Source: Micropruina glycogenica
GTDB taxonomy: Bacteria; Actinomycetota; Actinomycetes; Propionibacteriales; Propionibacteriaceae
Assembly: GCF_900289045.1 (NCBI RefSeq)
Contig: NZ_LT985188.1
Location: 1,488,001 to 1,552,000, forward strand
Length of the DNA: 64,000 bases
Direction of reading: 5' to 3'
Shown here: one piece after another, positions 26,394 to 36,587 of the stretch
Layout of the letters: every line of letters starts with the position of its first letter
How positions within the stretch are numbered: position 1 is the first letter of the stretch
Notes under the pieces: model-generated
What the model saw: the letters and a program-made list of their open reading frames with translations, nothing else
Databases searched by the model: none
What the model was told of the DNA's origin: nothing
Position numbers and translations under genes: made by a program

Positions 26394-26462
26394 GCCGTTC
26401 AGACTACGCACCTACGCTGACATCACCAGCCAGGGCCGGCACCGATCACGAAGGAGCATGCC

Positions 26463-30646: not shown

Positions 30647-32340
30647 AGACGCTCGCGGCTTTCGGCCGGGTGCTGCGCGACCTGGTGCTGCTCACCATCG
30701 TCGCGCCGGTGCGCGAGGGCCGTCCACGCACGGCCGGCTGGCCAGCCGGGTTGCGTGCGCTGCTGGTGTTGAGCCTGGCGGTCTATGCCGCGCTCACCCT
30801 GGCTGTGGTGTTCGCGGCGCCCCTGCGGGCCGTCGATCGGCTGATCGTGCTGAGTCGCGGCGGCCTGGTGCCCGAGACCGGCGCGATGCTGCTGATCGGC
30901 GCGAACGTGTTCGCCCTGGCGCTGCTGCTGACCGCGGCGCTGCATCTGAGCTGGTGGGCGAAGCTGCTGGCCTGGCTGCTCGTCACGTCGGTGGTGCTGT
31001 ACTTCACCCTCGGGGCGTCCGTCGATCCGCCGACCCTGCTGTGGTCGGGCGGTGGGTTGTTGGTGCTGCTGATCATGATCGTGGTGCGCTGGCGGCGCCG
31101 GTACGCCTGGTGGGAGTTCGTGGCGGTCGCGGCGGCCCTGGCCGCTGCCCTGTTCGGCCCGACGCTGACCAGCGAAACCCAGCGGGGCGTCAACGTCGAC
31201 TTTCGCGGCATTGCCCTCGAGGGCACGCTGCAGGCGATGACCAGCATGGCGATGCCGGCCCTGTTCGTGGCTGGCGCGGCCCTGGCCCAGATCGCGGTCT
31301 CGGCCTCCTTCGCGGGCGTGTCGTCGAGCGTGCGCGAACTGCCCCGCCCGGTCATCGTCGGGCTGGCCTGGCTGGTGCCGCTGGCCGCGGTGGTGACCGT
31401 GGTGTTCGCCCTCGGCGATGCCGAGAACAGCCCGCTGGGTTGGGTCGGCGCGGTGGGCGTGCTGCTGGTGATCGGTGCCTTGGCCACGGCCGCCACCGCA
31501 GCCGCGGGACGTCCGCCGGCCTGGTCGGACCTGGACGAGGACTCGACGGCGCTCAACTACCTGGTCGCCCTGTGTTCGGTCGCGTTGGCCCTGGTGGGGC
31601 TGGCGACGATTCCACTGCAGGCCGTGGTGCCACTGCTGCACGTCGAGGCTCTGCAGTCGCTGCTGGACGGCTACAACTTCATCGCGCGGCAGGACGCCAC
31701 AACATCGATTCTGCGGATGCTCGTGGGCGGTGTCGGTTTCGTGCTGGCCCTACCGCTGGCTCGGCGGGGACGGCCGTGGCCGGCGATGTTTCTGGCCGCG
31801 GTGTTCGCACTGGCCGGCCTCGCCCTGGTGCGGCTGCTCAGTCGCACAGGCATCGGCGCGCCGGTCGCCCAGGTGGCCGGAGTGCTGACCGTCGCGCTGC
31901 TGGTGATCGGCGGTTGGCTGCTGGCCACCTCGCGGTTGAGCCGCCAGGGGGCGGTCGCGCTGACCTGCGGGCTGGTGCTGTGCCTGGTGTACCCGCATCG
32001 GGCGATTCTGGACGACCCGGTGAGTGCCGCGCTCGGCTTCACCGGCATGGGTGCGGTGCTGTTCGGGCTGATCTGGCGGCTGCTCACCGAGGGCGAGATC
32101 ACCCGCGGCGACAGTCCGCGCTGGCCGATGCCGGCCCGGGTGATGCTGTACTGCGCCAGCGCGCTGCTGGCCGTGACGTCGACGGCTTATGTGGCGCTGA
32201 CCCGGCAGAGCGGCGGCGACACCGACATCTCGATCTTCACCGACGCCGGCGACTCGCTGCTGGGCACTCCCCTGTTCATCACCGCGGTGCTCGGCTGCAT
32301 CGGCATCGCGGTGGCCAGGCAGGCCGGTCAGCCGCGCTGA
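30643..32340 (+). CDS. Large polytopic membrane protein of unknown function
   Basis: The 565-aa product starts at a GTG that overlaps the preceding stop. I count about 13-14 hydrophobic segments over its whole length. No transporter signature or soluble domain is recognisable. It is co-translated with the PQQ-propeller protein and convergent with dxs (12-bp overlap of 3' ends). I cannot assign a function; a membrane partner for the propeller is a guess from the overlap. Confidence 0.8.
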   Translation: MKTLAAFGRVLRDLVLLTIVAPVREGRPRTAGWPAGLRALLVLSLAVYAALTLAVVFAAPLRAVDRLIVLSRGGLVPETGAMLLIGANVFALALLLTAALHLSWWAKLLAWLLVTSVVLYFTLGASVDPPTLLWSGGGLLVLLIMIVVRWRRRYAWWEFVAVAAALAAALFGPTLTSETQRGVNVDFRGIALEGTLQAMTSMAMPALFVAGAALAQIAVSASFAGVSSSVRELPRPVIVGLAWLVPLAAVVTVVFALGDAENSPLGWVGAVGVLLVIGALATAATAAAGRPPAWSDLDEDSTALNYLVALCSVALALVGLATIPLQAVVPLLHVEALQSLLDGYNFIARQDATTSILRMLVGGVGFVLALPLARRGRPWPAMFLAAVFALAGLALVRLLSRTGIGAPVAQVAGVLTVALLVIGGWLLATSRLSRQGAVALTCGLVLCLVYPHRAILDDPVSAALGFTGMGAVLFGLIWRLLTEGEITRGDSPRWPMPARVMLYCASALLAVTSTAYVALTRQSGGDTDISIFTDAGDSLLGTPLFITAVLGCIGIAVARQAGQPR

Positions 32341-34262
32341 TCGGCCTGGTCGGGGGCCGGTTCGGGGTCGCCGGCCAGCACGGTTTCGGTGGCCAGCCGG
32401 GCCAACTGCTGGGCGGTCAGGCACAGGTCGTCGAGAATGCCGGCGCGGGTGCCGTGGTCGATGAACCGCTGCGGAATGCCGAACTCGCGCACGTCGGCCC
32501 GCACCCCGGCCAGCCGGCACTCCTGGGCCAGCCGCGAGCCCAGACCGCCGGCCAGGCCGCCGTCCTCGATGGTGAGCACCAGGTCGTGCGCGCCGGCCTG
32601 GGCGATCAGGGCCTTCGGGGTGGGCAGGGCCCAGACGGGGTCGACCACGCGCACGCCGATGCCCTGCTGGGCGAGCCGGTTGCCCACCTCGACGGCCATG
32701 GTGGCGAACTGGCCCCAGCCCACCACGAGCACCCGGGGGTCGCCGTGTTCGACCAGCACGTCGAGGCCGTCCTCGTGTCGCACGGGGCGCAACGCAGCGG
32801 GCAGCGGATCTTTCGAGAACCTGATCGCCGACGGACCGTCGTCGATGCGCACGCATGCCTGCAAGGCCTCTTGCAGCCGCTGCTCGTCGCGGGGCACAGC
32901 CAGCCGCAGGCCCGGCACCAGGCCGAGCAGCGCCAGGTCCCACATGCCGTGGTGGCTGGCGCCGTCCGGACCGGTGATGCCCGCCCGATCGAGCACGAAC
33001 GTCACGCCCTCGCCGTGCAGGGCCACGTCCATCAGCAGCTGGTCGAAGGCGCGGTTGAGAAAGGTGGCGTAGATCGCCACCACCGGGTGCAGCCCGGCGC
33101 GGGCGAGGCCGGCGGCCGAGGCGACGGCGTGCTGCTCGGCGATGCCCACGTCGAAGGTGCGCTCGGGAAAGTGCTTGGCGAACCGGGTGAGCCCGGTGGG
33201 GTGCAGCATCGCGGCGGTGATCGCCACCACCCGGTCGTCGGTGGCGCCGATGCGGGCGAGCTCGTCGCCGAAGGCCTGGGTCCAGGTGCGGGCCGACGAG
33301 GTGGTCAGCGGTTCGCCGGTCACCTGGTCGATCGGGCCGACGGCGTGAAAGCGGTCTTCTTCGTGCTGCTCGGCGGCGGCGAACCCACGGCCCTTCTGGG
33401 TGATGGCGTGCACGATCACCGGGCCGCCGTCGAACTGTTTGGCCTGCTCGAAGGCCAGTTCGAGAGACTTCAGGTCGTGGCCGTCGATCGGCCCGAGGTA
33501 CTTGATGCCCAGGTCGGAGTACATGCCCTGGGGCGCGAGCACGTCCTTCACCCCGGCCTTGAAGCCGTGCATCAGGTCGTAGGCCGGCTCGCCGACCACG
33601 GGGGTGCGGTTCACCCAGCGCTTGATGCGGGCCAGCGCGCGTTCGTAGCGCCGGTCGGTGCGAATGGCCGACAGTTGCTGCCCCAGGCCGTGCAGCCGGG
33701 TGGCGAGGCCGCCGATGGTGGGGTTGTACGAGCGGCCGTTGTCGTTGACCACGATCACCAACCGCAGGTCGGGCTCGACCGCGATGTTGTTGAGCGCCTC
33801 CCAGGTCATGCCACCGGTCAGGGACCCGTCGCCCACGATGGCCACCACGGTGCGCGGCTCGCCCTTGAGCGCGAACCCCTTGGCCATGCCCTCGGCCCAC
33901 GACAAGGCGGATGATGCGTGCGAGCTCTCCACCCAGTCGTGCTCGGACTCGGCCCGGCTCGGGTAACCCGACAGGCCACCGGGTTTGCGCAAGGTGTCGA
34001 AGCGGTGCTGCCGTCCGGTGAGCATCTTGTGCACGTAGCTCTGGTGGCCGGTGTCGAAGATCAGCGGGTCGCGGGGCGAGTCGAACACCCGGTGCAGCGC
34101 GATGGTGAGCTCGACGGCACCGAGGTTGGGGCCGAGGTGGCCGCCGGTGCGCGACACGTTGGCGATCAGCGAGGCGCGAATCTCTTGGGCCAGCGTCACC
34201 AACTGATCGTTGGTGAGGTCACGCAGGTCGCGGGGGCCGGTGATCCGTTCGAGCAGCGCCAT
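32328..34262 (-). CDS. dxs: 1-Deoxy-D-xylulose-5-phosphate synthase
   Basis: The 644-aa thiamine-diphosphate enzyme joins pyruvate and glyceraldehyde 3-phosphate in the first step of the MEP isoprenoid pathway. Visible motifs are GGHLGPNLGAVELTIALH, the ThDP site GDGSLTGGMTWEALNN, the second-domain DVGIAEQHAV and the C-terminal RVVDPVWALPT. Length is standard. Its place opposite the DUF3000/HRDC pair mirrors Rv2680-2682c. Confidence 0.97.
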   Translation of the reverse strand: MALLERITGPRDLRDLTNDQLVTLAQEIRASLIANVSRTGGHLGPNLGAVELTIALHRVFDSPRDPLIFDTGHQSYVHKMLTGRQHRFDTLRKPGGLSGYPSRAESEHDWVESSHASSALSWAEGMAKGFALKGEPRTVVAIVGDGSLTGGMTWEALNNIAVEPDLRLVIVVNDNGRSYNPTIGGLATRLHGLGQQLSAIRTDRRYERALARIKRWVNRTPVVGEPAYDLMHGFKAGVKDVLAPQGMYSDLGIKYLGPIDGHDLKSLELAFEQAKQFDGGPVIVHAITQKGRGFAAAEQHEEDRFHAVGPIDQVTGEPLTTSSARTWTQAFGDELARIGATDDRVVAITAAMLHPTGLTRFAKHFPERTFDVGIAEQHAVASAAGLARAGLHPVVAIYATFLNRAFDQLLMDVALHGEGVTFVLDRAGITGPDGASHHGMWDLALLGLVPGLRLAVPRDEQRLQEALQACVRIDDGPSAIRFSKDPLPAALRPVRHEDGLDVLVEHGDPRVLVVGWGQFATMAVEVGNRLAQQGIGVRVVDPVWALPTPKALIAQAGAHDLVLTIEDGGLAGGLGSRLAQECRLAGVRADVREFGIPQRFIDHGTRAGILDDLCLTAQQLARLATETVLAGDPEPAPDQADQRG

Positions 34263-34289
34263 GCGCCGAGTCTAGGGGGACGATTCGCC

Positions 34290-34410
34290 GGTAGAGCTTG
34301 TCGAGACCCCGTTCACAACCGACGCACGTCACCGGGTGTGATTCGGCAACAGTTCGTGCCGTCATCCCGGCGAACGCCATCCCCGTCATCCCGGCGAACG
34401 CCGGGATCTC
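34290..34410. repeat. TCGA repeat and REP-like palindromes downstream of the SOS-linked gene
   Basis: One TAGAGCTTGTCGAGACC copy at about 34292 is followed by two REP-like units GTCATCCCGGCGAACGCC (34361 and 34385). The second continues into GGGATCTC and so forms a full palindrome. They fill the gap between dxs and the 137-aa gene. Confidence 0.75.
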
Positions 34411-34420
34411 AAGCAGGCCC

Positions 34421-34834
34421 CTACATCTTGCGCACCCAGTTCTTGCCGCGCAGCGCCTCTTCGACCAGCGTCACCTCGCGCTGCACCCGCACCAGCCACG
34501 CCTGCTGCTGCGACCACACGTCCACCGCCTCGGTCACCACCTCGGGCGGCACCAGTTCGGCCAGGCTCACCCGGACGCCGCCGAGCCCGTCGCGTCCGGC
34601 CTGCACCTGCGCGTTGACGAAGGTGACGGCGAACCGCGCCAGCACCACCGGGTGCCGCCGCAGCAACTGGTAGCGCCGGTAGTCGGCCGGGCAGCAGTCG
34701 AGCAGAAACTCGGTGGCCGTCACCTCCCAGTCGGGCGCCCCCGGTGGACGCACCCGCTCGGGCCACCCGGGCGGTGTGTAGATCGTGGTCTCTTGCCGCT
34801 GCATGGCCCTGCGGCGGTCGGCCAGTGACGCCAT
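34421..34834 (-). CDS. 137-aa conserved-looking protein behind a perfect SOS box
   Basis: ATG 34834 has AGGAGG seven bases upstream. The product has a basic N-terminus (ADRRRAMQRQE), a middle part with CCPADYRRYQLLRRHPVVLARF, then helices rich in Q and E and a basic end (GKNWVRKM). No signal, membrane helix or known domain is seen. Just upstream (34850-34865) lies TCGAACGTTTGTTCGA, the full actinobacterial LexA-box consensus, at a distance typical for direct repression. A DNA-damage role is inferred from this box alone. Confidence 0.8.
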   Translation of the reverse strand: MASLADRRRAMQRQETTIYTPPGWPERVRPPGAPDWEVTATEFLLDCCPADYRRYQLLRRHPVVLARFAVTFVNAQVQAGRDGLGGVRVSLAELVPPEVVTEAVDVWSQQQAWLVRVQREVTLVEEALRGKNWVRKM

Positions 34835-34849
34835 CGGTTCCTCCTGTGA

Positions 34850-34865
34850 TCGAACGTTTGTTCGA
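34850..34865 (-). promoter_or_regulatory. LexA (SOS) box
   Basis: TCGAACGTTTGTTCGA is a perfect palindrome that fits the mycobacterial/actinobacterial LexA consensus TCGAAC-N4-GTTCGA at all defined positions. One more base pairs on each side. It sits 16 bp before the start codon of the 137-aa gene. Confidence 0.88.
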
Positions 34866-34876
34866 TTCTAGGTTCG

Positions 34877-34935
34877 TTGATCGAGCTTGTCGAGACTGAG
34901 CCCGGGGAGCGGTCTCGACCGGCTCGACCAGCGCT
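34877..34935. repeat. Dispersed TCGA repeat pair
   Basis: GATCGAGCTTGTCGAGACTG and GGTCTCGACCGGCTCGACCA lie between the SOS box and the stop of the 13E12 gene. They may form a hairpin that ends the 13E12 transcript. Confidence 0.7.
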
Positions 34936-34937
34936 TG

Positions 34938-36281
34938 TCAGGTGCGCATGGGTGCTGTGTATCGGGCGTGGACTCTGGGTCGTTGGGTGGGGTCGACGCG
35001 TTTGGGTGGGATCACGTGGGGTGGGCCGTCGGAGGGGAGTCGTACTTGCCAGCGGTCGACTTTGGGGTTGTGGCCGGGTTCGACAATGCCGTGGTGGTGG
35101 GGGCAGACGAGTACCAGGTTATGTAAGGCGGTCACTCCCCCGGCCCACCAGGGCACGATGTGGTGCGCATGGCAGCTGGTCGGCTGCTTGTCGCAGCCCG
35201 GAAACACACACCCTTGATCGCGAACCTCGAGCGCCGCACGAATCGGGGCCGTGACGAGCCGTTGCGCCCGGCCCACATCCAACACCTGTGAGGGTGACCC
35301 GAGCACGGCGGGCATGACGTCGGCATCACACAACAACTGCCGCAGCGTGGACGCGGCGATCGGCTCACCGGTGCCGATCAGTTCACCCCTGAGCAGCCCG
35401 GCGTCGGTGGCGGTCTTCACCATCACGTCGTAACTCAACGTGACCACGACCCGGGGCCGGTCACCACCATGACTCGGGGCGAGCGCGTTGGCCAGGTGCC
35501 GATCGACCAGCGCCATCAGCGCGTCGGCGCGACGTTGCGCGGGCGTGAGGTTCGGCGCGAGCGGGTCGAGTCTGTCCAGCGCGCGGGATGCTTGGGCTGT
35601 GTAGCTGTCGATCAGTTTGATGAATGGCTCCGCATCGGCCACCGGCAGGCTGCCCCTGATGCGCACCGACCCATGATGGTCATGAGCAAAGGTGAGATGC
35701 CGATTGTGCTCAGCGGTGCGTAGGTCACGCTCCAACCGGGCCGCTTCACGCGCATCAGCGGTGTCGGGGTCGAGCACCTCCAACAGATACCGCGACAAGG
35801 CACGCAAATCGGCCGCATTGTGGGTGTCAGCGAACCCCACCATGAGTTCTTCAGCCTGCCGCAACTGGTCGGTGTCGAAGTCGTCCGGTAGATCCTGCAA
35901 CACCTGCGTGATCGCCTGCACCTGCTCCGGCACCAAGGCGCCCGCTGCAGCAGCCTGTGCCACGATCGGGAAGCGTTGCAGCCGCTCACCCTCGATCACC
36001 ATGCGGCCCGCCGCACGCCGAGTCATACGCACCGCGTCAACCAACCACGTCACCGTCGAGGTGCCATGCTCCTGCACGGCGATCTCGCCACGCTCGATTT
36101 CCGCGGCGAGCGCCGACAGCCACGCCGTCAGGCGGGCGTCCAACCGCACCGCGTCAGCCAACAGGTCTAGCTTCTGCTTGCCGGTCGACAGCCGCACCCG
36201 ACCATCGCCAAGAGCCGACAGAGCAGCATCCATCACGGCCACCAGGGCCGCATCGTCCAACTGCTCGAAATCCAACTCCAT
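34938..36281 (-). CDS. 13E12/DUF222 HNH endonuclease family protein
   Basis: The 447-aa product has an N-terminal DUF222 helical domain (about residues 10-330) and a C-terminal HNH nuclease fold: FPGCDKQPTSCHAHHIVPWW, then LVLVCPHHHGIVE. Members occur in many copies in actinobacteria as the 13E12 repeat family. Several mycobacterial copies belong to the LexA regulon. Upstream of this ATG, at 36313-36328, is a partial LexA box. Target DNA and biological role are unknown. Confidence 0.93.
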   Translation of the reverse strand: MELDFEQLDDAALVAVMDAALSALGDGRVRLSTGKQKLDLLADAVRLDARLTAWLSALAAEIERGEIAVQEHGTSTVTWLVDAVRMTRRAAGRMVIEGERLQRFPIVAQAAAAGALVPEQVQAITQVLQDLPDDFDTDQLRQAEELMVGFADTHNAADLRALSRYLLEVLDPDTADAREAARLERDLRTAEHNRHLTFAHDHHGSVRIRGSLPVADAEPFIKLIDSYTAQASRALDRLDPLAPNLTPAQRRADALMALVDRHLANALAPSHGGDRPRVVVTLSYDVMVKTATDAGLLRGELIGTGEPIAASTLRQLLCDADVMPAVLGSPSQVLDVGRAQRLVTAPIRAALEVRDQGCVFPGCDKQPTSCHAHHIVPWWAGGVTALHNLVLVCPHHHGIVEPGHNPKVDRWQVRLPSDGPPHVIPPKRVDPTQRPRVHARYTAPMRT

Positions 36282-36312
36282 GACTAGAGGCTACGCGGCG
36301 CGACTGACAGTT

Positions 36313-36328
36313 TCGAACATACGTACAG
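36313..36328 (-). promoter_or_regulatory. Degenerate LexA box upstream of the 13E12 gene
   Basis: TCGAACATACGTACAG keeps one perfect half-site (TCGAAC) and three of six positions in the other. It lies 32 bp before the ATG at 36281. Binding would need testing. Confidence 0.45.
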
Positions 36329-36389
36329 TTATCCACAAGGCTTTTCGAGATGAATATCGGCTGTGGACAACTTAGCCTTCCAAGACTTT

Positions 36390-36530
36390 GGAGATCCCGA
36401 CTTTCGCCGGGATGACGGGTTGGGCGGCATGGAGATCCCGGCTTTCGCCGGGATGACGAAAGTTGGGAGATCCCGGCATTTCGCCCGGATGGCGAAAATT
36501 GGGAGATCCTGGCATTCCGCCGGGACGACG
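36390..36530. repeat. Four-unit REP-like palindrome array
   Basis: GAGATCCCGGC(T/A)TTCGCCGGGATGACG-type units start near 36391, 36432, 36467 and 36503. The intervals are 41, 35 and 36 bp and each unit is a self-complementary hairpin. The gap between the 13E12 gene and the antiporter pseudogene has no other content. Confidence 0.85.
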
Positions 36531-36587
36531 AGTTGAGGAGACGCCTGGATGACGGAGCACGCCCTCGGGTTGCGAGGCGAAGCTGGC

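Follow-up and report, generated by a model that had tools for sequence, protein, structure and literature searches.

The closest described counterparts of the locus analysed here belong to two actinobacterial damage pathways. Passages of PMC4181829 give the LexA box of Mycobacterium tuberculosis as TCGAAC(N)4GTTCGA and name HNH genes of the 13E12 family among the LexA targets. Five putative HNH endonucleases are described as RecA-dependent in section 15 of PMC8151990, and other passages of this source give the PafBC/RecA-NDp motif of M. tuberculosis as TGTCGG or TGTCAG-10N-TA-3N-T. The regulon read through this motif is also treated in parts of PMC6789036, PMC8223512 and PMC5656591. According to section 7 of PMC9380542, most of the genes with a LexA site in S. 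venezuelae are without known function.

The gene under study, labelled F throughout, is a 137-aa open reading frame of Micropruina glycogenica, a member of the Propionibacteriaceae and not a mycobacterium. It lies at 34421–34834 on the minus strand of a 64-kb stretch of the chromosome, which is called the window below. The ATG start codon of F is separated by 15 nt from a perfect LexA (SOS) box, TCGAACGTTTGTTCGA, at 34850–34865. The window has no second exact copy of this palindrome of the form TCGAAC-N4-GTTCGA, and 16 LexA-like sites with up to two mismatches are present in it against 2.6 expected. The sequence and the position of the box are as given in a preliminary description of the locus; only the distance to the gene, reported as 16 bp, has to be corrected. 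The ribosome-binding site AGGAGG, read from the sequence, is found between the start codon and the box (34840–34845, minus strand). A promoter scan of the region 34200–36500 returned a single sigma70-like promoter, that of F, where shuffled sequences gave an expectation of 0.1. Its predicted core, TCGACA-N17-TAGAAT (34865–34893, minus strand), has its final base in common with the terminal base of the LexA box, and the perfect operator thus overlaps the −10 element. By eye, the −35 hexamer of this promoter appears to be supplied by a repeat-looking unit of the TCGAGCTTGTCGAGAC type (34866–34915). Other repeat-looking units, of the CCGGGATGACG and CCCGGCGAACGCCGGGAT types, flank F and the neighbouring HNH gene at 34380–34420 and 36390–36540, likewise by eye.

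The 3.84-Mb genome contains six exact LexA boxes, that of F included. One is located between lexA, assigned by its Pfam model, and a divergent neighbour recognised by eye. This neighbour belongs to a locus separate from F and gave no Pfam hit in the stretch scanned. The identical 16-mer of the F box also precedes the operon of DUF6504 (Pfam model) and dnaE2 (by eye). The remaining exact boxes are one inside a lepA-like gene, named by eye, and two more. LexA itself is encoded in the genome, as judged from the Pfam S24 and LexA DNA-binding domains. F resembles the members of the actinobacterial LexA/SOS regulon in having the same operator overlapping a core promoter in a genome that encodes LexA, but differs from them in that its product belongs to no known family. 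From these features we infer that LexA binds the box of F and that the gene is induced when LexA is inactivated.

Conservation of the operator among homologues of F had been proposed as a check of the SOS assignment, and the homologues bear it out. F is present in 25 of 57 relatives, the own genome counted among them, and a class-wide profile search detected it in 156 of 393 genomes, with 64 of the 123 genera represented; nearly every genome having it has one copy. Within 400 nt upstream of F in the 25 genomes, the best box has at most two mismatches in 24 and is perfect in 18. A scan of named contigs revealed 457 relatives of F, the best 80 of which were kept as named loci. Within 300 nt of F, the best box of these 80 loci shows no mismatch in 40, one in 22, two in nine, and three or more in nine, so that 62 loci have a box with at most one mismatch and 71 a box with at most two; one of the nine box-less loci has Ns in its upstream sequence. 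Among random windows (n = 1829, with 312 start positions each) there was no perfect box, and boxes with at most one and at most two mismatches occurred in 0.33% and 5.0%, respectively. For 599 other open reading frames at the same named loci the corresponding counts for zero, one, two, and three or more mismatches are 11, 8, 21 and 559. Among the 11 with a perfect box, nine are divergent from F and share its box, the sole perfect one of the locus, and the other two flank a single box at the locus L130. In an alignment of the 71 boxed loci, the 12 specified positions of the box reach 1.4–2.0 bits and the flanks mostly remain below 0.6. As these rows were chosen for a box with at most two mismatches, the high values are partly due to construction and only the fall-off at the flanks is informative. 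An A immediately 5′ of the box reaches 1.1 bits.

A further 59 F loci were sampled, 19 of them from the family of Microbispora (f18) and 40 from elsewhere; 20 of the 59 are shared with the 100-locus set. The box is retained with at most two mismatches at all 19 f18 loci. Two of these (L113 and L131) duplicate named Microbispora loci, and further loci of the named set are from Microbispora as well. Outside f18, the box is kept at only five of the 40 loci and absent from 35, which implies that LexA control of F is lineage-restricted. It is also absent from five F loci of one genus, probably Streptomyces. Overall, 95 of 139 F loci have a box with at most two mismatches (93 of 137 once the two duplicates are removed); the locus sets behind these counts overlap, and the loci are related rather than independent. 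Judged from the upstream regions, the putative LexA control of F is thus spread over distant families, yet lineage-restricted, and within these lineages the operator is conserved in the orthologues.

The box does not stand in a fixed relation to the promoter. In 78 boxed loci of the 100-locus set, a TANNNT hexamer starts at offset −5 from the box start in 29 loci, its final base being the first of the box; it starts at +7 in seven, at +16, immediately behind the box, in 16, and at +24, 8 nt after the box, in six. The background of this hexamer is 0.0007 per base. A −35-like hexamer with at least four matches at 16–18 nt accompanies 18 of the 29 hexamers at −5, compared with 6.4% of random places. 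The variation of the offset implies that the operator stays in place while the promoter register changes. This bears on the possibility that F is expressed constitutively, as a housekeeping gene in the interval between acn and dxs, with the box being a local accident. The 35 box-less loci among the 40 sampled outside f18 and the named set would fit such a gene. Since the box is present at 71 of the 80 named and all 19 f18 loci in differing promoter registers and other open reading frames there do not have it, we consider an accident extremely unlikely. An acn-like open reading frame, named by eye, was placed in the vicinity of F by clustering at 51 of 101 loci. In several box-less lineages, F starts close behind such a gene in the upstream sequences inspected by eye, and there it may be constitutive. 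A PafBC-type motif does not take the place of the box: it precedes F at none of the 44 box-less loci, and the three of 139 loci that have it are all boxed too.

Downstream of F, at a distance of 158 nt, lies a co-directional dxs-like gene, named by eye (32328–34262, minus strand), and this gene order recurs in many actinobacteria. A relative of dxs is found at 96 of the 139 F loci, in 94 of them on the same strand as F. The distance between the two genes, with starts called by open reading frame length, is at most 132 nt in 45 of the 59 measured named loci, with 27 of those falling between 12 and 58 nt. Such spacing would suit an SOS-controlled F–dxs operon, in which the box serves dxs, and with it the synthesis of isoprenoid and thiamine precursors, and F is a leader gene. 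The 158-nt gap in the window argues against this reading, and so do the dxs genes themselves: of 61 dxs open reading frames, only one has a perfect box in the 300 nt preceding it, and this one is divergent and shares the box of F. Moreover, no relative of dxs is present in the 3.9–8.5 kb of sequence available for each of the 19 f18 loci or at any of the six named Microbispora or Planotetraspora loci. All 25 of these dxs-less loci have the box, which implies that the box belongs to F, and we regard an operon built around dxs as unlikely. The presence of F was also compared with that of the mutasome marker DUF6504. In 33 genomes of the own family both are present in 14, F alone in seven, DUF6504 alone in three and neither in nine. 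The two are associated within this family, but a dependence was rejected, because DUF6504 is found without F in all eight genomes of a second family.

On the other side of F lies a gene at 34938–36281 on the minus strand, which had been described as a DUF222/HNH gene. Pfam identified both domains (PF02720, E 4.1e-30; PF01844, 23.0 bits at a cut-off of 21.4), and the gene is accordingly of the 13E12 type. The genome has four near-full-length, dispersed copies, this gene included; the remaining three share 79–86% protein identity with it, and the conserved stretch covers about 1.48 kb. The gene had been regarded as a further LexA target on account of a half-perfect box 32 bp upstream. This degenerate box, CTGTACGTATGTTCGA (36313–36328, minus strand), is indeed present, at 31 nt. 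It has three mismatches, only its GTTCGA half being perfect, and the same number of mismatches is found in all four own copies. The best LexA-like sites upstream of three orthologues have four (G006), five (G003) and five (G002) mismatches, with nothing comparable at the place of the near-box. A few-mismatch, conserved upstream operator is thus not seen for this gene, in contrast to the 13E12-family genes listed as LexA targets, and it was judged to lie outside the LexA unit. The start codon of the orthologue is overlapped by a LexA-like site with one mismatch in G006 and with two mismatches in G002, and these sites could conceivably act as operators.

The promoter of the HNH gene points to the other pathway. 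A PafBC-type (RecA-NDp) motif, TGTCAG-N10-TAGCCT, is located 6 nt before its start codon (36288–36309, minus strand). The pattern TGTCRG-N10-TANNNT occurs 6–7 nt before the ATG of all four own copies. If these are counted in, 12 of 14 homologues with an identity of 43% or more have it. In a more distant set of 12 homologues, two have the PafBC-type motif and three others have a LexA box with no or one mismatch upstream. These counts come from 24 of 30 homologue loci and two own copies, with six loci containing partial matches left out. The background of the motif, 4.4% of windows, is inflated, as the windows could include the motif itself; a slightly wider pattern at F loci gave 1/2780. The HNH gene seems to be wired to DNA damage through the PafBC-type, RecA-independent pathway and not through LexA. 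The earlier idea of a damage-induced nuclease may still be right as to the induction, by way of this pathway, but not as to LexA. Upstream of the HNH gene, on the minus strand, are also two 9-mers, TTGTCCACA (36362–36370) and TGTGGATAA (36329–36337), which we take to resemble DnaA boxes. Similar pairs are found at the own copies at 271924 and 2801922 and at the G003 homologue; the copy at 3473256 has one such 9-mer and the G006 and G002 homologues have none.

The same pattern recurs at genes of DNA metabolism. The genome contains 47 exact TGTCRG-N10-TANNNT sites, compared with seven for the reversed pattern. Of 30 sites examined as loci, 19 stand 6–7 nt before a start codon, the open reading frame being picked by length. 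Among these 19 are the sites of two HNH copies and of uvrA, uvrB, uvrC, polA, recG, ligA, priA, a ligD polymerase-domain gene and a gyrB/parE-like gene; pcrA, recC, phoH and recA are among the genes with sites at other distances. The names correspond to the best NCBIfam match, for stretches that are mostly cut and with many scores below the cut-offs. The HNH promoter thus matches the PafBC regulon in its exact motif and in the spacing that it shares with uvrA, uvrB, uvrC, polA, recG, ligA and priA of the same genome. The candidates for pafB and pafC are two tandem open reading frames that overlap each other, are 316 and 320 aa long and coincide with two WYL matches; they received no NCBIfam name and have no open reading frame of pafA size upstream on the same strand. 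Within the window, a second PafBC-type site, TGTCAG-N10-TAGTCT (26401–26422, minus strand), precedes a ligD polymerase-domain gene of 350 aa at a distance of 7 nt. At recA (G000:C1:1618178-1618287), a PafBC-type site and a LexA-like site with one mismatch are 72 nt apart; mycobacterial recA is placed under both damage pathways in parts of PMC8223512.

The preliminary description had further combined F and the HNH gene into one damage-inducible repair or mobile-element system under LexA. The two genes are adjacent and co-directional in the window, and each has a damage-type promoter. At other loci they rarely occur together: a DUF222-type gene is near F at three of 139 (L116 and L152 by BLAST, L130 by eye), and at L116 and L152 the relative of the HNH protein is encoded on the strand opposite to F. 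Only at L130 (L130:4489-5998, Nocardioides sediminis) is the gene upstream and co-directional. There, F is overlapped at its start by a 496-aa DUF222-like open reading frame, for which Pfam gave no hit, and the perfect LexA box precedes this frame and not F directly. This arrangement keeps a joint system alive as an explanation, and the start-codon sites of the G006 and G002 orthologues and the boxes of the three distant homologues are in keeping with it. Against it stand the dispersed four-copy nature of the HNH family, the three mismatches of the near-box in every copy and the PafBC-type motif of 12 of the 14 close homologues. We consider one common system to be decidedly improbable; most likely, F and the HNH gene are neighbours and not partners.

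The product of F had been called a protein of no known family, and the searches agree with this: the window protein matched no family in Pfam, NCBIfam, PADLOC or PHROGs at E ≤ 1. When 76 homologues were compared with Pfam at E ≤ 0.1, the commonest match was ThcOx, with six members and a best E of 8e-4, a relation that was judged to be due to chance. The sequences of the PDB gave just three weak matches (E 0.7–0.9). The gene does not appear to be phage-borne, as a single-sequence tblastn against 50,697 phage records gave no match; among 72,556 plasmid records there were five, all below 60% identity, and three of these five records exceed 3 Mb. No description of F was recognised in titles and abstracts, for a gene that has no searchable name. 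Likewise, no gene recognisable as F appears in section 7 of PMC9380542 or section 15 of PMC8151990, which for a nameless gene is no test.

An AlphaFold2 model of F, computed from a 76-row alignment, is all-helical with a mean pLDDT of 88.8. It consists of helices at residues 36–47, 50–54 and 56–60 and two long helices at 62–92 and 97–128, with a short helix at 4–13 in the low-confidence N-terminus. The residues W24, P25, P49 and L65 do not vary in an alignment of 135 sequences, in which conservation is 96–99% for L44, P31, A40, A127 and R53. A Foldseek search with the model retrieved nothing at E ≤ 0.001 from the PDB (best E 1.4) or BFVD (best 0.59), and a weak hit to M. tuberculosis primase (5z51, E 5.8), in the domain that binds the helicase, was judged uninformative. 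The top hit of VIA-align, at Z 7.6, is a designed helical protein, and such values are commonplace for helical bundles. The protein had also been described as small and basic. This holds for the window protein, with a pI of 9.2, but not for the core of the family, which has a median pI of 7.0; a conserved basic charge was sought across the family and not found. The neutral core favours protein–protein contact over DNA binding, and with low confidence we assume that F contacts a protein. Small SOS-controlled proteins are known among the actinobacterial division inhibitors, Rv2719c/ChiZ and DivS, which are membrane or LysM proteins. F is like them in size and in its predicted SOS control, and unlike them in having no Pfam domain and a compact helical model.

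We propose that in undamaged cells LexA dimers would occupy the box at 34850–34865. As this box takes in the last part of the −10 element and the position at which transcription is expected to begin, the promoter would be blocked. After DNA damage, RecA filaments would trigger the cleavage of LexA and F would be transcribed; in relatives with short gaps between F and dxs, some of the transcript may reach dxs. The neighbouring DUF222/HNH gene would be a separate multicopy gene of the 13E12 type with its own PafBC-type damage promoter. We hold this reading, with F as a LexA-repressed SOS gene and the HNH gene apart from it, to be highly probable; in all likelihood, DNA damage turns F on via LexA. 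What the protein does is a matter of more tentative proposals. It may bind a partner through an arm with the near-invariant pattern W-P...PP...W and an LRRHP segment, and act as an SOS effector that modulates a checkpoint or repair. This effector role through protein contact is a guess, and a rather doubtful one. It is possible, although we would not expect it, that the chromosomal gene F encodes an uncharacterised SOS effector, retained under LexA by two distant families or more, that acts on replication, division or RecA by means of the W-P arm.

The analysed sequences make it very likely that F is a new conserved LexA target, of no known family, beside a damage gene of the PafBC type. At this locus, the LexA and the PafBC-type damage pathway of actinobacteria would stand next to each other, and the comparison points to 13E12/DUF222 genes being able to answer to either of them. 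Should F prove to be an effector, it would represent a kind of SOS effector without counterpart among the families searched. The conservation of its box in Propionibacteriaceae, Nocardioidaceae and a distant family marks F out as a promising candidate for a genuine SOS function as yet unstudied.
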